The translations under genes and the position numbers were made by a program. A stretch of DNA of 64,000 nucleotides, taken from Opitutia bacterium. Its GTDB lineage: Bacteria > Verrucomicrobiota > Verrucomicrobiia > Opitutales > UBA953. Shown here piece by piece: positions 9,927-54,620 of this stretch. The stretch is from contig BGOI01000008.1 in assembly GCA_003569165.1 (NCBI GenBank), forward strand, positions 1-64,000, in the 5' to 3' direction. Every line of letters starts with the position of its first letter. The stretch's first letter is position 1. The notes under the pieces were generated by a model. That model was given only the letters and a program-made list of their open reading frames with translations. It did no database searches and was not told where the DNA came from.

Positions 9927-10586
9927 ATGGAAGAACTGACCAAGAAGCAGCGGGCCATCCTCGACTACATGAAGGCCCACGTCGCCGAGCACACCTACTG
10001 GCCGAGCATCCGCGATATCCAGGCCAAGTTCCGCTTCGCCTCGACCAACGCCGTCTTCGGCCACCTTCAGGCCCTCGAGCGTAAGGGCGTCCTCCAACGC
10101 ATCCCCGGCGCCGCCCGCGCCTACAAGATCGTCCCCGAAGTCCTCAGCGACACCTCCGAGACGGTCATCCGCTACGAAGGCCCCGGCGATGACGCCATCG
10201 CCTTCGAAAGCGTCAAGTTCGCCGGCTCAATCGCGGCCGGTTTCCCCGACTACACCGAATCCTCCGGCGTCCTGGATGCGATGCAGGTCCCGATTTCAGC
10301 TAGTTCCCGTCGTCGTGCCCCCGAAGCTTTCGCTCTCCGCGTCCGCGGCGATTCAATGATCGACGCCGATATCAACGACGGTGACACGGTCATCATCGAA
10401 CCCGGCTCGCCGAAGCATGGTGACATCGTTGCCGCTCTCATCGACGGAGAGACGACCCTCAAGCGCCTCATCAAGCAGGGCTCGAAGGTCTACCTCAAAG
10501 CCGAGAACCAGAATTACCCGGACCTCATCCCCACCACCTCTCTCACGATCCAGGGGATCGCGAAGTCGGTGATGAAGCGGATCTGA
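9927..10586 (+). CDS. lexA: LexA SOS repressor
   Basis: A 219-residue LexA: DNA-binding repressor of the SOS regulon that cleaves itself when RecA is activated. An N-terminal winged helix (~1-65, MEELTKKQRAILDYM to GVLQRIPGAARAY) is followed by a linker and an S24-type latent protease. The predicted cleavage bond is A104-G105 in SIAAGFP. The catalytic dyad is S143 in RGDSMIDADI and K179 in ETTLKRL. The recognition-helix region (FRFASTNAVFGHLQAL) departs from the E. coli form, in keeping with the GAAC-N4-GTTC operator seen just upstream. The ATG at 9927 matches the usual start position of the family. It converges on a methyltransferase gene. Confidence 0.95.
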   Translation: MEELTKKQRAILDYMKAHVAEHTYWPSIRDIQAKFRFASTNAVFGHLQALERKGVLQRIPGAARAYKIVPEVLSDTSETVIRYEGPGDDAIAFESVKFAGSIAAGFPDYTESSGVLDAMQVPISASSRRRAPEAFALRVRGDSMIDADINDGDTVIIEPGSPKHGDIVAALIDGETTLKRLIKQGSKVYLKAENQNYPDLIPTTSLTIQGIAKSVMKRI

Positions 10587-44855: not shown

Positions 44856-47800
44856 ATGAAACACAGCAAACGTAGCTCCGGTTTCAGCCTCATCCTGTCC
44901 CTGACGGTGATGGCGGGAATCGTCATGCTGCTGGTCACCCTTTCCGCCTTTATGACGGTCGAATCTCGGGCCGTCATGAATCAGCAACTGGCGACGCGCG
45001 CCAAATTGAACTCCATCGTCGCGATGCGCCTCGCCCTCGCGCACCTCCAGCAGGAGGCCGGAGCGGACCGACGTTCCACCGCGCGAGCCGATATCACCCA
45101 GCCCGCCGCCACCGCCAGCACGGTGCGAAATCCCATGTGGACCGGCATCTGGCGCACCGACCTACCCGATCTTCCGCCCGCCTGGCTCGTCTCCGGACGC
45201 GCCGATCAACCCGCTGGCACCCAAGCGGTCTCGCTCTACTCGACCAGCCTCACCCCAGATTATCACGTTGGCTATTGGGCACCATGGCAGTCCGGCTACA
45301 CGCCGTCCGCAGATCAGCTCGTCACGCTCGTCGGCCTTGGCAGCGCGTTGAGTCAGGACGGCTCCACACCGAGCGGGCTCGTCTCGCTCCCGAAAATCGC
45401 GCTGCCCGACGACGATGTCGTCGGCTCCTATGCCTATTGGGTCGGTGACGAAGGTGTGAAGGCGCGCCCCAACCTCATCGACACACGTGCAAAGAGCGAC
45501 ACGAACAGCGCCGATCAGCTCATCTCCGTCCGTAGCCCCGTAACCCACGGGCTACTAAAGGACCTCCCGAACCAGTCTCAAATAACGGCACTTTCCCGAA
45601 TGAAGGATGCGCCCCTCCTCACCAACTGGGACCCCATCATCACCGGCGGTGCCCCGCTCGATACGCGCAAGTTTTTCCACGACATCAGCCTCGTCTCGGC
45701 AGGAGTGCTGGCCGACCCCGTCAACGGCGGCCTCAAGCGTGACCTCTCCGTCGCCTTCGAACTCAGCGACGCGCAGTTCGCCATGACCGAATTCGGCGGC
45801 GGTGCGACGGGCGCAGCCGGTACCGCAACCGAGAATGGCGTGGAAGCTTTTCCCGTTTCAGAAAAAATGCCGGTACTGATGAAAGGAAGCGCGAAGACCA
45901 CTGCTGAGCCCATCTTTAGCCGCACGGTCCCAGACGGACAAGTCCGCGGCCCGACCTGGTGGGCATTGCGCGATTACCACCGCCTCTACAAACAGCTCGG
46001 CTGGAGCTCGGGCGGTTCTGGTGCTCGCGCGACAACCACCCCTACCCTGCTTGCCCGAACGCTTTGGCCCAACGTCGCCGCCGCGCACCCGTCTGGCACT
46101 CCGGCGAGCAGCGGCCTTGCGAATAATAGCCTTCGCAATCGAATCTACGGCTACTCGGACATCTACAACGGCGACCTGCCCACGCCAATCAACCCCAACG
46201 CCTCCGACCTCCTCAACGGAGACTCCGGACGACTCATCACCCGCCCGCTCAACGTCGCCGCCACGCCCTACGTGCAGCGAGTCTCACTGGCGTTCAGCGT
46301 AAACAAGATGCAGTGGTTCATCTGGAAATCCATCAAGATTGGTAAGAACGTAATGTGGTATCAGGAAGAGTGGGTCGACATCCGCCTCAACATCACGCCG
46401 ATCGTCGTCATCCATAACCCGTACAATGTGCGGATGACCTGGCAACCTGGCACCACCGGTGCCACCGGCACGAAGACACCCTATGCGGCGGCAATCTCGT
46501 TCTCTGATCTCGCCGGCTGGAAGTTCCGCTTCAAGCAGTATCAGGCCGGCACGATGAGCGGCCCGTCCACCTACGAAACCCCGCTCTCCGATTTCTTCAG
46601 CCTCCAGAGCGGTAACAGCGACAACGAGGACTCGTTCCGGCTCTACCTCTCCAAGGACAACAATGCGGCCATCACCCTCGAGCCCGGCGAACACCGCGTC
46701 TTCTCCTGCGAACCGGTCATCGGCGAATGGGCCAAGTCTATCGTCCTAAACAATACCTATGACACCCGCGGCGGCTACCGCGATAACGTCTGGGACTGGG
46801 GCTTCGGCGTCGATGCGACGGACAACTTTGACATCAACTCGCCGATTGCGTTCGAGATCATCCCTGGGGGCAATATGCGGATGCGCCACGCCGTTGCGTG
46901 TTGGCCGGACGACCAGCTCTACCTGAACAGCAGCCCAGGTAATTCCGACAAAAATGACTTCTTCTACAATAGCAGCGAGGTCAACGAAGTGGTCTTTACC
47001 GACATCAACCAGATAAAGTATCCAAGCCCCGGTGAGAAGTTCTTTGCGAGTTGGCGTCACGTGCGCGACAAGTATCCGCGACCGAACCCGACCTACGATG
47101 GCAGGATCCCCTACCCCACGCCGACCTCTCCGCCGCTCGAACCCGATCTGGTGAACGTAATTGATATCTCCGTCAAAACGGCGGACGCGGAAGGCGCACC
47201 CTTCGCCACCCTCGCACTTTCCAACCCGCTCGCCGCCACGCAGCGCGCCAGCGCTTCCGGACGCATAGGAGCAGGCACCGGCGCCGGCGCGCGCGGAGCC
47301 TCACCGAGCTACCAGATCACCGTTCGCAATGGCACCTGGCTCAATGTGCTGGCGAACGCCGACAGCGGACGGCTCGCCTTCGGTGGTAACTCGACCTCGT
47401 CGTACGGTGCCCCGAAAGCCATCCTCACGGAACTACCGTTGGTCCAGCCGATTACGCTCGCCCAATACGCCCACGCTAATTTCGGCGTCCGCGACCAACA
47501 ACCCCTGCTCAGCATCGGCAACAGCTTCGCCTCCCCGTACGTCGATGCCAGGAAAGTCCTACAGACAAACGGCGCCAACTGGTCTGAGTTCGACCAGACT
47601 TACCTGCTCAACGCAGCGCTCTGGGATGGCTACTTCCTGTCCAGCCTCGCGCCCTGGATGAAGACCGGTGCAACCGGGGCGATTGCGCCCACGATACCCA
47701 CGCCGACGAACCCCAACGCCACGGCCACCACGATCGATCCCAACGAAGCTAAGAGCCTCACTCAGGTCATCGACGATTTCGTCAATAATGACACGCCACT

Positions 47801-48854
47801 GGATAACCCACGCTTCTCGATCGAACGCTCGACCCTGAGCGCAGCTGAAACCGCAAAATCCCTCGCCGACTACCGTCGCTCCGCCGCCGTGCTGCTCAAC
47901 AAGGGAGCATTCAACGTCAACTCGACGTCATCTGTCGCTTGGCAGACCTTCCTCGGCTCCGCCAAGAAGTTGGCGATCGCCGATAAAGGCCCCTCGATCC
48001 CCGACGACAAGAGCAACGCGCGCTTCCCCCGGGTACTCGCCAAGGCAACCAGCAGCGTCGCCGCCAATAATTTCGACGACCCCTCCAACTGGTCCGGCTT
48101 CGCCAACCTCACCGATGCTCAAATCACCAGCCTAGCGAACGCTATCGTTGCCGAGAACAAGGCGCGCTTCGCAATCCAGATACGCGGCGAACGCGATCTG
48201 ACCAAGGCTCCCGGCGCCCGGCTCTTCGGTGGGCTAACCAAGCCAGCCACGCCTTACCTCGGGCTCTCCGAGTTCATCAACCGCTTCCTCAACCCTGATA
48301 ACATGGCCAGCCGCTCTGGCGCCCTGCAGGCGGCGATCCTGCGAGCCGACCAGACGTTTAATGCCGGACTCAGCGACCGCCTCTTCGCCAATGCCACCGA
48401 TCGTATCCTGACGCAGGCCTCACTTCAGACGGCCACCGCCGGCTTCTTCCCGAACCCGGAGAACATCGAGGTCATCGCCCAGAACGGAACTAGCCGAGCC
48501 CACTCTGCGATGGGTGCGCCCGGTAATCTCCTGCAGTCCGACCTCCTCCAGAGCCTCGGCTCAGCCCTCGCGAGCCGCTCCGATACCTTTACCCTGCGCT
48601 GCTACGGCGAAGCCTCCCAGCGCAGCGGCGAGACCGGCTCCGCCTGGCTTGAAGCCGTCGTGCAGCGCCTCCCCGAGTTCGTCGACCCGACTAATGCAGC
48701 TGAGACCGGCAACAGCGCTCCCAAACCGCTGAAAATCGCCCCGTCCACCAGCACGGATGCATCTGTCAGCACCGCCCTCACTTCGGTTAACAACGTGCTC
48801 GGCCGTCGCTTCAAGATCATTTCCCTTCGCTGGCTGAAAGCCGATGAACTTTAA
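44856..48854 (+). CDS. Giant prepilin-like protein, Verru_Chthon cassette A-like, copy 1
   Basis: A 1332-residue protein. The N-terminus MKHSKRSSG-FSLILSLTVMAGIVMLL reads as a type IV prepilin leader with cleavage after G9, followed by a ~25-residue hydrophobic helix. The usual Glu at position 5 of the mature protein is Leu. A conserved helical stretch (AMRLALAHLQQEAGADRR, ~56-73) follows, then a very large mixed region with SYAYWVGDEGVKARPNLID (~190) and a C-terminal block RSDTFTLRCYGE...WLEAVVQRLPEFVDP. It resembles the Verru_Chthon cassette protein A family, of unknown function, found in Verrucomicrobia. The B, C and D cassette proteins are not next to it. It overlaps the next gene by 11 bases. 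Confidence 0.85.
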   Translation: MKHSKRSSGFSLILSLTVMAGIVMLLVTLSAFMTVESRAVMNQQLATRAKLNSIVAMRLALAHLQQEAGADRRSTARADITQPAATASTVRNPMWTGIWRTDLPDLPPAWLVSGRADQPAGTQAVSLYSTSLTPDYHVGYWAPWQSGYTPSADQLVTLVGLGSALSQDGSTPSGLVSLPKIALPDDDVVGSYAYWVGDEGVKARPNLIDTRAKSDTNSADQLISVRSPVTHGLLKDLPNQSQITALSRMKDAPLLTNWDPIITGGAPLDTRKFFHDISLVSAGVLADPVNGGLKRDLSVAFELSDAQFAMTEFGGGATGAAGTATENGVEAFPVSEKMPVLMKGSAKTTAEPIFSRTVPDGQVRGPTWWALRDYHRLYKQLGWSSGGSGARATTTPTLLARTLWPNVAAAHPSGTPASSGLANNSLRNRIYGYSDIYNGDLPTPINPNASDLLNGDSGRLITRPLNVAATPYVQRVSLAFSVNKMQWFIWKSIKIGKNVMWYQEEWVDIRLNITPIVVIHNPYNVRMTWQPGTTGATGTKTPYAAAISFSDLAGWKFRFKQYQAGTMSGPSTYETPLSDFFSLQSGNSDNEDSFRLYLSKDNNAAITLEPGEHRVFSCEPVIGEWAKSIVLNNTYDTRGGYRDNVWDWGFGVDATDNFDINSPIAFEIIPGGNMRMRHAVACWPDDQLYLNSSPGNSDKNDFFYNSSEVNEVVFTDINQIKYPSPGEKFFASWRHVRDKYPRPNPTYDGRIPYPTPTSPPLEPDLVNVIDISVKTADAEGAPFATLALSNPLAATQRASASGRIGAGTGAGARGASPSYQITVRNGTWLNVLANADSGRLAFGGNSTSSYGAPKAILTELPLVQPITLAQYAHANFGVRDQQPLLSIGNSFASPYVDARKVLQTNGANWSEFDQTYLLNAALWDGYFLSSLAPWMKTGATGAIAPTIPTPTNPNATATTIDPNEAKSLTQVIDDFVNNDTPLDNPRFSIERSTLSAAETAKSLADYRRSAAVLLNKGAFNVNSTSSVAWQTFLGSAKKLAIADKGPSIPDDKSNARFPRVLAKATSSVAANNFDDPSNWSGFANLTDAQITSLANAIVAENKARFAIQIRGERDLTKAPGARLFGGLTKPATPYLGLSEFINRFLNPDNMASRSGALQAAILRADQTFNAGLSDRLFANATDRILTQASLQTATAGFFPNPENIEVIAQNGTSRAHSAMGAPGNLLQSDLLQSLGSALASRSDTFTLRCYGEASQRSGETGSAWLEAVVQRLPEFVDPTNAAETGNSAPKPLKIAPSTSTDASVSTALTSVNNVLGRRFKIISLRWLKADEL

Positions 48855-49659
48855 AGCCCTCCTGCTAGCGCTTCTCGTCGGTGCGCCCTTGCTGCTTCCC
48901 GCCGCCGACTCGCCAGTTGTTGAGGCTCGCCTCAAGTTAATCTCCACCACCCGGCCCCTCGTCGGCGTCGGCTTCGCCCGCGGTAAGAAGGCCGAAGGTA
49001 TCGTCATCCCGACCGACATGTTCTCGGAGGAGATCACCTACCGCGGCCCGGCTCGGTTCGAACTCTTCGAGCTGAATACCGTGGCCAAGCCGACGGAGTC
49101 GATCCCGACGACATCGGAAAAAGAAGGCTCTTCCGCGAAAACGCGCCCCGCCCGCGGCATCAAGGCGCGTGAACCGTCCCACGAGTTCGTCCCCAGCGGC
49201 AGGCCGCCACTGGCCTGGATCGACCTACCGGCGAACCAAGGCCGCCTGAATCTCATCCTGCTCATCACCCCCGGCAAGGATAACGGCATCACCGCACTCA
49301 ACGACGCGCCTGGCTCATTCCCTCCTGGCAGCAACCGTTACTTGAACCTCTGCGGCTTCCCCGTTGTTGTGAAGACGCCATCAGGCGAGCAGGCCATACC
49401 GCCCGGCGGCACCAAGGTCATCCGCCCCGGAGCCAAGGACAACGACTACTACGACCTGCAGCTCGTGACCAAGACCGACGGCGCCGACCGCCTCGCCTTC
49501 TCTAGCCGCATCTTCCACATGGAATCCATCCGGAAGCTCTACCTGTTAATCCAGGCCCCTGGCGACAACGCCCGCCTGATCGTCCGCGACATCGAAGACC
49601 GGCCGCCTTCCGCCAAAGGGGGGACGCTCACGACGGTCGGCCCCAAGGGCGGCAAGTAG
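48844..49659 (+). CDS. Secreted partner of cassette protein, copy 1
   Basis: A 271-residue exported protein (signal peptide MNFKALLLALLVGAPLLLPAAD). Its ATG lies inside the end of the giant gene (11-base overlap), which points to translational coupling. I recognise no family, but it shares a pattern with the partner of the second module: EITYRGPARFELFEL after a VIPTDMF-like block, FPPGSNRYLNLCGFPVVV in the middle, and RKLYLLIQAPGDNARLIVRDIEDRPPS at the end. The fold looks beta-rich. It probably interacts with, or is secreted alongside, the giant protein. Confidence 0.8.
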   Translation: MNFKALLLALLVGAPLLLPAADSPVVEARLKLISTTRPLVGVGFARGKKAEGIVIPTDMFSEEITYRGPARFELFELNTVAKPTESIPTTSEKEGSSAKTRPARGIKAREPSHEFVPSGRPPLAWIDLPANQGRLNLILLITPGKDNGITALNDAPGSFPPGSNRYLNLCGFPVVVKTPSGEQAIPPGGTKVIRPGAKDNDYYDLQLVTKTDGADRLAFSSRIFHMESIRKLYLLIQAPGDNARLIVRDIEDRPPSAKGGTLTTVGPKGGK

Positions 49660-49737
49660 GTCAGGAGTTTACATAACTTTGATATAACGGAAGGGGACGG
49701 GGCTTGAGCACGCTCGGGCCGACCCCAGACTGAGGCC

Positions 49738-52700
49738 ATGGCCCCCGACACCGAGACGCTACCCCGCCGCCTGCGCCCCGGCTTCAGCCTCGTGCTGTCG
49801 CTCGTGGTGATGTCCATCGTACTGATGACGGTCATCACGGTGGCTTCGTTCGTGACCATCGAGTCGCGCCTCTCGGCGCAGCACCAGAACTTCCAGCGGG
49901 CGAAACTCAACGCGGCCGTCTCGCTCCGCCTCGCCCTCGCACACCTCCAGCAGGAAGCTGGCCCCGACCGGCGCATGACCGCGCGGGCCGATATCCTGGC
50001 CAACACCACGCAGCCGGGCTGGACCTGGAACACGATCCGCAATCCGCTCTGGACCGGCGTCTGGCGCAGCGACCAGCAACTCCAGCCGCCCTCCTGGCTG
50101 ATTAGCGGACGACACGACCAGCTACCCGGTACGCAATCGGCGAACCTCTTCGGCCAGGAGGACTTCTACATCGACCAATGGGTCCCTTGGCAGAACGACT
50201 TCACCATCCCGGCCAACCTGCTCGTGCCTTTGGTAGGAAGCACCTGCGCGAGCGCCGCCGAACTCGCCACGGCCACCAGCCCAGGGAAACCCGACGGCCG
50301 CATCGCCCTGCCCCGTATCGCCCTGCCCGATAGCGATGCGAATGGCTCTTACTGCTACTGGATCGGCGACGAAGGGGTCAAAGCACGCATCAATCTCACT
50401 GACCCGCGACTGACTCCGGCTATCGGCATCACGACGCCTCAGCTGCAGCAGGAAGCACTGCGCGGTACCGCACGCTCGGGGACCGGCATCCTGGCCGGAC
50501 TCGAGAATATGCCCCTCAGCGGGGTCGACCCGCGTATCACCCAGATGCGCGAAATCCCCTTCCTGACGAATACCGGACTCGGACTCGCGGAAACCTCCCC
50601 GCCGACCCGCGCCAAGCGCCTGTTCACTGAAGCTACGCTATGGTCGCGCGGCGTGAACTGCGACTCCCTCTGGGGCGGGCTCAAGGTCGACCTCTCGCTG
50701 GCCTTCGAGAAGACGGACGCCGAATGGAAAGCGTCCGAGTTCGGCGAAGGCGCCGCCCCGAAGGACTCCGCCGGAGCGCAGCTATCCGGGGTCACCTACA
50801 CCTTCCATCCGAACGGCGTCACCACGCGCAGCGCCTACGCCGACGCCAAGGTCACCGTCCGGCATGACGGCGCCTCCCGCAACATCGCGCCGCTCTATTC
50901 CTTCTCGAACAGCGGCACGACGCGCGGCCCGACCTGGGAATCCCTCCGCAGCTACCACCAACTGTACAAAGAAATCAATTGGTTCAATCCGGTGGCGCCG
51001 GAACTCAACGCCCGAGCGCACTTCCCCAACGCGGCCGCTCTCGCCGCCTCGGCCTATGGAGATCGCACCCATTACGGGCGTTTCTATAACCGTGCCGACT
51101 CGACCGGCGATTTCCTCAACGCCACTAGCATCAACGGACTTCCCCCACCCAAGCCGACCAAGGTGGCGGTCTCCCCTTACGTCTGCCGACAGATGCTCGT
51201 CTGGGGCCTCCAGGAAGGCGGTGGCCTCCTCCGACTGACCGTTTCGCCGGTGATCGTGCTGCATAATCCTTACAACGTCAGCCTGCGGCTCGCACGCGAT
51301 AACTCCTCCTCGGAGAATTCCGCACTGCGCCTTTCCTTCCGTAACTGGGAGACACTGCAACTGAAGTTCCAAAAGAACACCGACACCTGGACCCGGAGCA
51401 TCGGCGAACTTGCCGCTGGTGCCGACACCTCCGTCAACTCAGTCGAAAGCTTCCGAGCCTACGTCGGTGTCGACATCGTACTGCAACCCGGCGATCTACG
51501 GGTCTTTTCCTATGCCGCTGAAGGCCCTCCGCCGGGATTCCCGAGCACGCGTCGTTTCATGCGTGACCCGGTCACGACGAGTGTGCCGGTCGTCCCCCTG
51601 ACTGTCGATAAGGGAATGGATACGCGCGGCGGTTTCTGGATGAACTGCACCGACGCGACTGGCAACCCGCTGACCGTGATGAATGGAATCGGCGGGGAGG
51701 CCATCACCGTCAGCCTCCAGAACAGCGGCGTCTTCGAGGCACGGGTGCTGCTGAGCTCCTGGCCAGGAGACCGCCTCACGAGCCAGAATAACAACAGTCT
51801 CAGCTCAGCCTACAACACCTGCAGCGAACTGAATACCCTCATGGCCACGAATCTTAGCCGCAGCGGTGGGGTCGTGACCTTGACCGTAGGCGGCACCGGA
51901 CTCGACGTGCCGGACGCCTTCTCGGAACCTAAAATCCTCGGCATCTTTGATTACGGCCTCCGCTGGCCGAAAGACGCGCTACCCTTTCCCGTATTCTCGC
52001 ATTCCAACCCGATGGCGGCCGTGACCCGCGGCGACGCCAACGGCATGTCCAGCTCCAAAACGGCCTCGTTACCTATGAAAGACGGCTACGCCTTTACCTC
52101 GCCGAGCTACAAAATGGTGCTCCGCCCGGCCAACAACTGGAACGATGTCATTGAGACGCCGGTCGGCGACACCCGCGCCTTCGGCGGCCTCAGCGCGACC
52201 TCCGGGCTCGGCGGCGTGACCTCGGCGGTTTATACGAGCGTGCCGCTCTCGGCGCCCCTGTCCCTCGCCCAATATACGCATGCGAATTTTGGCATTCGCG
52301 ACCAGGAGCCTCTTTTCCAGATCGGCAACAGTTTCGCCTCACTGAGCAACAATATCGCCAGCGCCTACACCACGGACGGGGCTTGCGGGGTCAGCAACCA
52401 TGATCAGTCTTGGATGGCCAATTCAGCCCTCTACGACCGGTTCTTCCTCTCGGGCGCAGCCCCGATCATCAGCCGGGCGGCGGTCATCACGGAGTCCAAG
52501 ACCTTAAGCACCGTCCTCGATGAATTCGCCGCCGGCACCGGACGGCTTGCTAATCCACGCACCCGTCTCTTCCCAACGCGAGACCCGGTCACCGTACGCG
52601 CCATGCTCGGCGACCATCGTCGCATCGCCGGGACGATCCTGACTGACGGCACTTTCAACGTTAACAGTACTTCGGTGGACGCCTGGGCGGCCCTCCTGGC

Positions 52701-53616
52701 CACCGCGAAGCGTAACGTGATGGGCGCGGCCACCGAGCTACTGCCTGGTACCGATAAGAACGCCCGTTTCCCGCGAGCCGCCCGAGCCGACCCCGTGGAC
52801 TATAACTATAAGACTGCGTTCAACGACAAGAAGGCCTGGACCGGCCTGGCGACCTTGGACGACGCGCAGATCAAACTGCTGGCCAAGTCGATCGTCGACG
52901 AGACACGCATGCGCATCCGGCAAAACCATCGCTACCCATACGGCATCAAGAATGGCCTCAACGTCCACTACGTGATCAAAAACCGCGGCGTCGAAGTCCC
53001 GCTGCCTTACATCGGACTGGCCCAGTTCGTGAACCGCTTCAACTGCGGCATGTACCCCAACCAGGTCGCTTGGCAGGGCTGCCTCCAAAACGCCATCCTG
53101 CGGGCCGACGTCGACGGAGCCAACCTCTCCAACCGTAGTTCCCCCCTGACCGCGGCGCCCGCGTACGATGCGTCGAAGCTCACAGTAAGCACCGCTAATT
53201 CTGGCCCGGGCCTGATTCCCTACGTATTCCTGCCCAGCAATGTCGTCGCCACCGACCCCCGGACGAGCAGCACCAAGAGCCACTCGCTTCGGGCGGCACC
53301 GACTTCGTTGATGCAATCCGATATTCTCGAAGCCGTCGGCTCATCGCTGAGTACGCGCTCCGACACCTTCGTCATCCGTTGCTACGGTGACTCAACGGAC
53401 CCGCTTGACCCGTCCCGAACCCTGGCCGGCTGCTGGATCGAAGCCGTCGTGCAGCGTATCCCAGAATTCTGCGACCCCAGCCAGCCACCCGAAACCGAGG
53501 TAGCCAAGCTGACCGACGGACAACAGCACAACCCCTTGCTCAACCAGATCAATCGCACGCTAGGCCGGCGCTTCGTCATTCTCTCCACCCGTACGCTCAC
53601 GCAGAAGGACCTATGA
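49738..53616 (+). CDS. Giant prepilin-like protein, Verru_Chthon cassette A-like, copy 2
   Basis: A 1292-residue paralogue of the first giant protein. The leader MAPDTETLPRRLRPG-FSLVLSLVVMSIVLMTVI again fits prepilin cleavage before Phe, with Leu instead of Glu at +5. SLRLALAHLQQEAGPDRRMTARADI and SYCYWIGDEGVKARINLTD match the same positions in copy 1, as do LAQYTHANFGIRDQEPLFQIGNSFAS and the end block RSDTFVIRCYGD...WIEAVVQRIPEFCDP, LGRRFVILSTR. The middle differs, so the copies are old. It starts 78 bases after the first partner gene and overlaps the next gene by 4 bases (ATGA). Confidence 0.85.
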   Translation: MAPDTETLPRRLRPGFSLVLSLVVMSIVLMTVITVASFVTIESRLSAQHQNFQRAKLNAAVSLRLALAHLQQEAGPDRRMTARADILANTTQPGWTWNTIRNPLWTGVWRSDQQLQPPSWLISGRHDQLPGTQSANLFGQEDFYIDQWVPWQNDFTIPANLLVPLVGSTCASAAELATATSPGKPDGRIALPRIALPDSDANGSYCYWIGDEGVKARINLTDPRLTPAIGITTPQLQQEALRGTARSGTGILAGLENMPLSGVDPRITQMREIPFLTNTGLGLAETSPPTRAKRLFTEATLWSRGVNCDSLWGGLKVDLSLAFEKTDAEWKASEFGEGAAPKDSAGAQLSGVTYTFHPNGVTTRSAYADAKVTVRHDGASRNIAPLYSFSNSGTTRGPTWESLRSYHQLYKEINWFNPVAPELNARAHFPNAAALAASAYGDRTHYGRFYNRADSTGDFLNATSINGLPPPKPTKVAVSPYVCRQMLVWGLQEGGGLLRLTVSPVIVLHNPYNVSLRLARDNSSSENSALRLSFRNWETLQLKFQKNTDTWTRSIGELAAGADTSVNSVESFRAYVGVDIVLQPGDLRVFSYAAEGPPPGFPSTRRFMRDPVTTSVPVVPLTVDKGMDTRGGFWMNCTDATGNPLTVMNGIGGEAITVSLQNSGVFEARVLLSSWPGDRLTSQNNNSLSSAYNTCSELNTLMATNLSRSGGVVTLTVGGTGLDVPDAFSEPKILGIFDYGLRWPKDALPFPVFSHSNPMAAVTRGDANGMSSSKTASLPMKDGYAFTSPSYKMVLRPANNWNDVIETPVGDTRAFGGLSATSGLGGVTSAVYTSVPLSAPLSLAQYTHANFGIRDQEPLFQIGNSFASLSNNIASAYTTDGACGVSNHDQSWMANSALYDRFFLSGAAPIISRAAVITESKTLSTVLDEFAAGTGRLANPRTRLFPTRDPVTVRAMLGDHRRIAGTILTDGTFNVNSTSVDAWAALLATAKRNVMGAATELLPGTDKNARFPRAARADPVDYNYKTAFNDKKAWTGLATLDDAQIKLLAKSIVDETRMRIRQNHRYPYGIKNGLNVHYVIKNRGVEVPLPYIGLAQFVNRFNCGMYPNQVAWQGCLQNAILRADVDGANLSNRSSPLTAAPAYDASKLTVSTANSGPGLIPYVFLPSNVVATDPRTSSTKSHSLRAAPTSLMQSDILEAVGSSLSTRSDTFVIRCYGDSTDPLDPSRTLAGCWIEAVVQRIPEFCDPSQPPETEVAKLTDGQQHNPLLNQINRTLGRRFVILSTRTLTQKDL

Positions 53617-54620
53617 TCGCCCGTACCGCCCTCCTGCTGCCGCTCCTCGCGACGTCTCTTTTCGCCCAGACTACCGACAAGCCCGGGGTCAGCATCCGCT
53701 TCCGGGCCCTCGCTTTCGACGACGCAATCCCGGCTGCTAGCTACCTTGAGGGCGACACTTTGCGTCGGCTCAGTATCCCGAACAACGCCTTCACCCGAGC
53801 GATTAACTATAAAGGTCCGCCCACGCTTCGTTTCATCACCATCGACGAGGAAACCTTGAAGCCTCGGCCGCTCACACCCGACATGACGGCAGCCATCCAG
53901 CGTCTGCGCCGTGCTCAGGCTGTCGCCTTGCAGGCGTCGGACGAGTTCGCCCAGATCACCCGCCTGCTTGATACCCTCAACTTTCAGATTACAGAGAGTA
54001 TCCGTAAGCCGTCCACTGGGGATCAGGCTCAGATCGACGCGCTCAACGAAAGACTCAAGGAACTCTCCGCCATTCTCGCCGCGGCTTCCAAGGAGACCGA
54101 AGAAGCCAATCTGCTTATCCTGAGGCTGGAATCCGCGCCCCAAGAGCCGCCCAAGGACGCTCCGAAAAAAGACGGGAAGGCGCCCAAACCAATCTCCACG
54201 CCCACCGCTGAATACACGTTCCAGAAAGATGGTAATTACCTGCTGCTCTTCTCTTCGGGCGGCAATGGACACCAGATCCTGGCCATGGACGACGCCGAGG
54301 GAATCTTCCCTTACGGTTCTTTCCAGTTCATCAACCTCACCGGTAAGGGCGTCGAGTTACGTTACCCTGATCGCAAGGTCACGCTTCGTGCGAACGCGCG
54401 TATCGTCGTGAAGAATCCCGCGGCGGACCATCAATACACCGTGGCGGAAATCCACACGAAAGCTGACGACGGCTATGACCTCGGCCACGTCTACCGCTCG
54501 CTGCAGCAGCCAAACGTTCGCTCCCTCGTCTTCCTGCTGCCGATCCCCGACGAGCCGCACGCAATCCGCAGCAAGACCATCGAGGATCGACGTCCGGCGG
54601 AACCCGCCGGGACGAAGTGA
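53613..54620 (+). CDS. Secreted partner of cassette protein, copy 2, with coiled-coil insert
   Basis: A 335-residue exported protein (MIARTALLLPLLATSLFAQ signal). Its start overlaps the giant gene stop by 4 bases. It matches the first partner at INYKGPPTLRFITID, FPYGSFQFINLTGKGVEL and SLVFLLPIPDEPHAIRSKTIEDRRP. Between the first two blocks it carries an extra ~110 residues (~95-205) rich in Ala, Leu, Glu and Lys (AAIQRLRRAQAVALQASDEF, LNERLKELSAILAAASKETEEAN), probably a coiled coil, followed by a Pro/Lys linker. No family is recognised. Confidence 0.8.
   Translation: MIARTALLLPLLATSLFAQTTDKPGVSIRFRALAFDDAIPAASYLEGDTLRRLSIPNNAFTRAINYKGPPTLRFITIDEETLKPRPLTPDMTAAIQRLRRAQAVALQASDEFAQITRLLDTLNFQITESIRKPSTGDQAQIDALNERLKELSAILAAASKETEEANLLILRLESAPQEPPKDAPKKDGKAPKPISTPTAEYTFQKDGNYLLLFSSGGNGHQILAMDDAEGIFPYGSFQFINLTGKGVELRYPDRKVTLRANARIVVKNPAADHQYTVAEIHTKADDGYDLGHVYRSLQQPNVRSLVFLLPIPDEPHAIRSKTIEDRRPAEPAGTK

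Follow-up and report, generated by a model that had tools for sequence, protein, structure and literature searches.

Tandem genes for giant, probably GspK/PilX-type prepilins and their exported partners in an Opitutia bacterium: putative interchangeable tips of a type IV filament

Results

Two A-B units in the window

The window, i.e., the whole stretch of 64,000 nucleotides that was analyzed, is located on contig C8 of a genome of 2.03 Mb, which is represented by 37 contigs and estimated to be 87% complete. According to the list of open reading frames (ORFs), four plus-strand genes are arranged in it head to tail as two A-B units (A1, B1, A2, and B2), with the following features:

44856..48854, plus strand: A1, 1332 aa, best read as a giant minor prepilin of the GspK/PilX type, without Glu5 (ORF; paralogue of A2)
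44880..45047, plus strand: prepilin G/F cleavage site and N-terminal helix of A1, residues 9-64, with Leu and not Glu at +5 (sequence; survey of +5 residues)
45030..45095, plus strand: A1 motif LALAHLQQEAGADRRSTARADI (sequence; alignment with A2)
45444..45467, plus strand: GDEGVKAR block of A1 (YWVGDEGVKARPNL), the equivalent of FWTDDESCKVNINT in TIGR02600 and similar to EDEsgKLPL of GspK
47910..47930, plus strand: FNVNSTS motif of A1, weakly aligned to INVNTAS of GspK (E 0.14)
48576..48608, plus strand: RSDTFTLRCYG block of A1, among the predicted C-terminal strands that would close the pilin core
48844..49659, plus strand: B1, 271 aa, partner with two beta-sandwich domains, predicted to be Sec-exported (family; structure model)
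49738..53616, plus strand: A2, 1292 aa, best read as a second giant minor prepilin of the GspK type (ORF; paralogue of A1; family profile)
49780..49947, plus strand: prepilin G/F site and N-terminal helix of A2, with Leu at +5 (sequence)
53356..53388, plus strand: RSDTFVIRCYG block of A2 (sequence; alignment of A1 with A2)
53613..54620, plus strand: B2, 335 aa, partner predicted to be Sec-exported (ORF; family)

The preliminary description of this DNA had claimed two head-to-tail units with internal overlaps of 11 and 4 bases, and the ORFs were found exactly so (11 nt for A1/B1 and 4 nt for A2/B2). A1 and A2 can be aligned from end to end with 33% identity (591 bits); the motifs said to be common to them are present in this alignment, and A1 scores 1016.6 bits against the profile of the A family. 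Both leaders are basic and contain the G/F site followed by a hydrophobic helix, while Glu at +5 is absent; the helix assigned to A1 is supported by a helix predicted at residues 19-77 of a homologue (L242). B1 and B2 have the C-terminal half in common (30% over 125 aa, E 7e-15), and in B2 an additional segment separates the two conserved parts. The overlaps, together with predicted Sec export, support the earlier view of B as an exported protein translationally coupled to A.

Distribution of A-B modules

The A-B units of the window do not stand by themselves: a third module was revealed in the source genome, and hundreds of relatives were found in the phylum Verrucomicrobiota. Cultured relatives also carry the module (Cerasicoccus, Pelagicoccus, and Geminisphaera). 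The third locus (A3 followed by B3) is located on contig C1 (L009). A3 (L009 7364-13452) consists of two overlapping frames that meet at TGATG, around position 10138, as a result of either gene fission or an assembly error; in a relative (L070) there is a single ORF of 1887 residues. ExbB/TolQ-like and ExbD-like genes (assigned by eye) are located divergently beside the third A-B locus in two genomes (L009 6335-7308; L071 1903-2852).

The A-B locus and its duplication were found again in many congeners, a recurrence which means that the locus is more than a chance arrangement. Within the genus the tandem pair keeps its place beside recJ/secDF (gene names assigned by eye), e.g., in L199. In a profile search of 388 genomes of the phylum, A was detected in 151 and B in 63, and some genomes contained tens of candidate copies of A and B. 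Other arrangements were also observed: a third module type of the genus with the reversed order, B before A, and a 4-base overlap (L069 6653-11889); two B-like genes after one A in a sister genus (L171 3914-6002; L172 5992-7838); and a similar pair of B-like genes at L071 13255-14804.

Pairing of A with B

To reveal how regularly B accompanies A, 40 B matches were sampled blind to A, and their gene surroundings were then inspected. A adjoins B at 39 of these 40 loci; B is located downstream in nearly all of them and upstream in one (L150). This survey agrees with the earlier proposal that B is a dedicated partner of A, and B without A is represented in the sample by a single orphan (L176). In this case (L176 1858-6681, and also in L192) the place of A before B is taken by an exported protein of large size that contains numerous Asp-rich repeats of the DxDxDG type.

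In named genomes the A-B junction, with start codons chosen by rule, falls within -60 to +30 nt in 61 of 68 cases, and overlaps of 25 and 4 bases are recurrent. The distances of A and B are correlated (mirror-tree Mantel r 0.82), which we do not take as proof of pairing because species relatedness inflates r. The converse rule fails: A without recognised B was found in Akkermansia-like genomes, at L072 and in some G-H-I-J-A operons. It should be mentioned that the Akkermansia-like loci L180-L184 contain paired A genes without recognised B, several of them near exported proteins of a different kind, about 260-310 aa in length.

Pairwise BLAST demonstrated that B is a genuine family, whose members have a length of 220-335 aa and are predicted to be two-domain beta-sandwich proteins. 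None of 65 B proteins matched NCBIfam, one matched Pfam spuriously, and a PDB sequence search with the B profile gave no match. The predicted structure of B1 consists of two beta-sandwich domains (pLDDT 84). In a Foldseek search this model was most similar to the extracellular tandem beta-sandwich of PepT1/PepT2 (E values from 3.8e-6 to 3.5e-5, TM about 0.45 at most), which is taken as a likeness of fold only; no enzyme or toxin fold was found. There was likewise no hint that A and B form a defence or toxin system.

A proteins as probable tip-type minor pilins

The absence of Glu5 is no oddity of the A proteins. It is the usual signature of the tip subunits GspK and PilX: the capping subunit of the HIJK tip complex has no Glu5 (PMC10191384), and both GspK and PilX are devoid of it (PMC7541494). 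Among 62 aligned A proteins, position +5 is occupied by I, L, V or M in all and never by E, and position -1 by Gly in 61, which bears out the description of A as a prepilin-like giant without Glu5. In the loci where A is accompanied by other prepilin genes (see below), Glu is present at +5 in every G, H, I, and J prepilin scored; it is absent from all the scored GspK proteins, which belong to the T2SS of genomes that also encode A.

Profile comparison of the A N-terminus, including that of A1, revealed GspK as the closest relative (E 7.5e-8), followed by I (1.1e-5), H (6.2e-5), G (1.5e-4), and J (4.8e-3). The GspK model was matched at E<=0.01 by seven of 20 A proteins (best 4.2e-5), and PilX_N by one A protein. 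The C-terminal half of A gave no significant match to the GspK profile (E 0.14); the best local match there is the NVN-S/T-S motif common to both. With the curated GspK model NF037980 (cut-off 130), A1 scored 12 bits (E 0.11), and the undisputed T2SS GspK of the source genome, with 64 bits, also stays below the cut-off. No family cut-off of Pfam or NCBIfam was reached by A or B, and a PDB sequence search with the A profile revealed no relatives. Cellobiose phosphorylase was considered as a PDB relative of A and rejected, its matches being non-significant.

The genes of the T2SS follow the order gspG-H-I-J-K. A comparable operon, G-(G)-H-I-J-A-B, with A as the last prepilin gene, was found in many named Opitutae genomes and also at L158, L169, L173, L174, L185, and L189. 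At L149 an A-B-A-B tandem is followed by an I-type prepilin gene on the same strand, which is a direct link between a tandem like that of the window and minor pilins. In the source genome the G-H-I-J cassette and A are unlinked, so that the A-after-J order is a feature of its relatives.

The structure was modelled for the L242 homologue of 1010 residues, which was aligned with A1 and A2 (pLDDT 88, pTM 0.89). The model begins with a long N-terminal helix and ends with three strands; between them lie a large insertion rich in beta structure and then helical segments. Foldseek revealed no solved structure significantly similar to it (best E 0.027). Because none matches as a whole, the pilin core was read from the order of secondary structure elements and not from superposition; this order fits a pilin core with an inserted domain. 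The core would be discontinuous and would comprise the helix, a strand at residues 170-181, and the C-terminal strands.

Taken together, these data favor the interpretation of A as a giant minor pilin of the tip type, akin to GspK and PilX. Like GspK of the T2SS and PilX of T4aP, it is the last prepilin after G-H-I-J and has no Glu at +5; it matches them in the N-terminal helix profile and is similar in the DE..K and NVN-S/T motifs and in the predicted order of C-terminal strands. It differs from them in that (i) it is two to five times larger, (ii) its C-terminal half is not significantly alignable, and (iii) it is followed by B where GspK and PilX have GspL or PilY1.

It might also be supposed that A is simply anchored in the membrane, as a surface or periplasmic protein, by an N-terminal helix that does not enter a filament. 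Indeed, the size of A exceeds that of known pilins several-fold, and most modules lie away from prepilin genes, which were found near only six of the 40 sampled A-B loci. Nevertheless, a basic leader with G at -1 conserved in nearly all of 62 sequences, an N-terminus specifically of the GspK type, and a fixed operon position after J speak against a simple anchor, and we regard this explanation as very improbable.

Relation to the Verru_Chthon cassette

A had been reported to resemble the Verru_Chthon cassette A family (TIGR02600, cut-off 332.3 bits). The resemblance itself was confirmed: the TIGR02600 and A profiles match in three colinear regions, with E values of 3.5e-9 for the N-terminus, 0.003 for the GDEGVKA block, and 0.13 for the RSDTF block. 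Membership, as judged by the cut-off, was not: A2 reached 13.5 bits over its first ~80 residues, A1 had no match, and none of 57 A relatives exceeded the cut-off. Judging by these profiles, A and Verru_Chthon A are likely sister branches of giant GspK-like pilins. Proteins above the TIGR02600 cut-off were found in seven of the 388 genomes of the phylum. At seven TIGR02600 loci examined, I/J-type prepilins were located alongside and no B was found beside the TIGR02600 genes. Verru_Chthon A, like A, is giant and prepilin-like, is devoid of Glu5, and adjoins I/J-type prepilins, whereas in most examined loci the TIGR02600 gene precedes its prepilins. A literature search for 'Verru_Chthon' returned no papers.

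The cassette B, C, and D proteins, which had been considered missing, have possible counterparts elsewhere. A G-H-I-J prepilin cassette without A was detected on contig C5 (L104 8993-12567), and its prepilins of the I, J, and G types gave weak matches, below the cut-off, to TIGR02598, TIGR02599, and TIGR02596, respectively; in relatives such genes form one operon with A-B. It is the only G-H-I-J cassette found in the source genome, versus three A-B modules.

The J-type prepilins also show weak matches to the HpsC model of Nostoc (E 3.8e-4 and 1.1e-4), as does one H-type prepilin to HpsA, a model of about 1500 residues. This would suit an operon that builds a pseudopilus for the export of surface polysaccharide, in the manner of HpsA and the hps pseudopilins. 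HpsA, like A, is very large, has a possible prepilin-like N-terminus, and is accompanied by pseudopilins. However, the HpsC match is N-terminal only, the HpsA model is not matched by the A proteins, and neither the surroundings of A-B nor those of the cassette showed any polysaccharide genes; a function of this kind therefore seems highly unlikely.

Filament machinery of the source genome

In agreement with the preliminary description, there is no pilus machinery inside the window. Cassette-like prepilins and machinery were found outside it, on other contigs of the same genome. The PilD and type II/IV genes, whose presence elsewhere had been suggested for checking, comprise a prepilin peptidase on contig C22, PilB, PilT, and PilC on contig C19 (L106), and a T2SS on contig C2 that includes GspE, GspF, a GspK of its own, and a secretin. 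The second of the two secretins of the genome is of the PilQ type; it is read in two frames and accompanied by a PilM-family protein on contig C7 (L314 10203-17802).

We take the PilM/secretin order on contig C7 to resemble the Amuc_1098-1102 region of Akkermansia, which belongs to the same phylum. The MUL2 part of that region is reported as a type IV-like pilus by which Akkermansiaceae attach to glycans (PMC13174399). The published locus does not include A and B, and any link between them and such a pilus is putative.

The presence of a T2SS in the same genome raises the question of whether A could be the tip of a secretion pseudopilus, each A pushing its own B, as cargo, through a T2SS-type secretin. 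The gspG-H-I-J-K gene order, the GspK kinship of A, and a Sec-exported B encoded beside its A fit this scheme, and GspK has been proposed to contact substrates (PMC7541494). We nevertheless consider it rather unlikely. The T2SS of the genome already has its own pseudopilins, GspK included; the fold predicted for B is not that of an enzyme or toxin; and its strict pairing with A is more like that of a structural partner. Moreover, in genomes rich in modules this scheme would require a large number of dedicated cargos, all with the same fold.

Discussion

We propose that the A-B modules form tip complexes which can replace one another on a type IV filament, and in which A is a giant tip pilin of the GspK/PilX type; we estimate the probability of this reading at about 0.6. 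According to it, A would combine a prepilin-type N-terminal helix with a pilin core carrying several hundred inserted residues. B would be exported via Sec to the periplasm and would dock on A; the overlap in translation would keep its synthesis in pace with that of A. Together with the I-/J-type minor pilins of the C5 cassette, A would start a type IV filament and stay at its tip, presenting A-B outward. Different A-B modules would then serve as alternative tips of differing specificity, attaching probably to surfaces or polysaccharides; glycans or surfaces as ligands are a natural guess from the biology of the phylum. The modules look like exchangeable tips because most of them stand alone while one G-H-I-J cassette was found. 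Since this cassette is unlinked to A in the source genome, A is assigned to its filament from the relatives.

The capping of the filament by A and the docking of B on A are proposed because precedents exist in PilX-PilY1 and CofB-CofJ. PilY1 is associated with PilX in M. xanthus, which has three such clusters (PMC7541494), and CofJ, an exported non-pilin partner, with the tip minor pilin CofB (PMC10191384). As in A-B, an exported non-pilin partner goes with a tip minor pilin in both systems, and Myxococcus likewise has several parallel clusters per genome. The differences are that B, predicted to consist of two beta-sandwich domains, showed no sequence relationship to PilY1 or CofJ, and that the bulk resides in the pilin A and not in the partner. 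A wider generalization can be put forward only tentatively: Verrucomicrobiota and Kiritimatiellota may possess one filament, made from a single G-H-I-J set, with many giant A tips, each with its own B, as a binding repertoire.

While the principle of the filament is known, the branch of giant tip subunits and the B family appear to be undescribed in the resources searched. If our interpretation is correct, a function, that of tip subunits in type IV filaments, could be assigned to many unnamed giant proteins of Verrucomicrobiota, with the uncatalogued exported family B as their partner. It would also offer candidates for the adhesin at the tip of the type IV-like pili by which Akkermansiaceae are reported to attach to glycans, as well as a case in which the use of many alternative tips by one filament can be tested.
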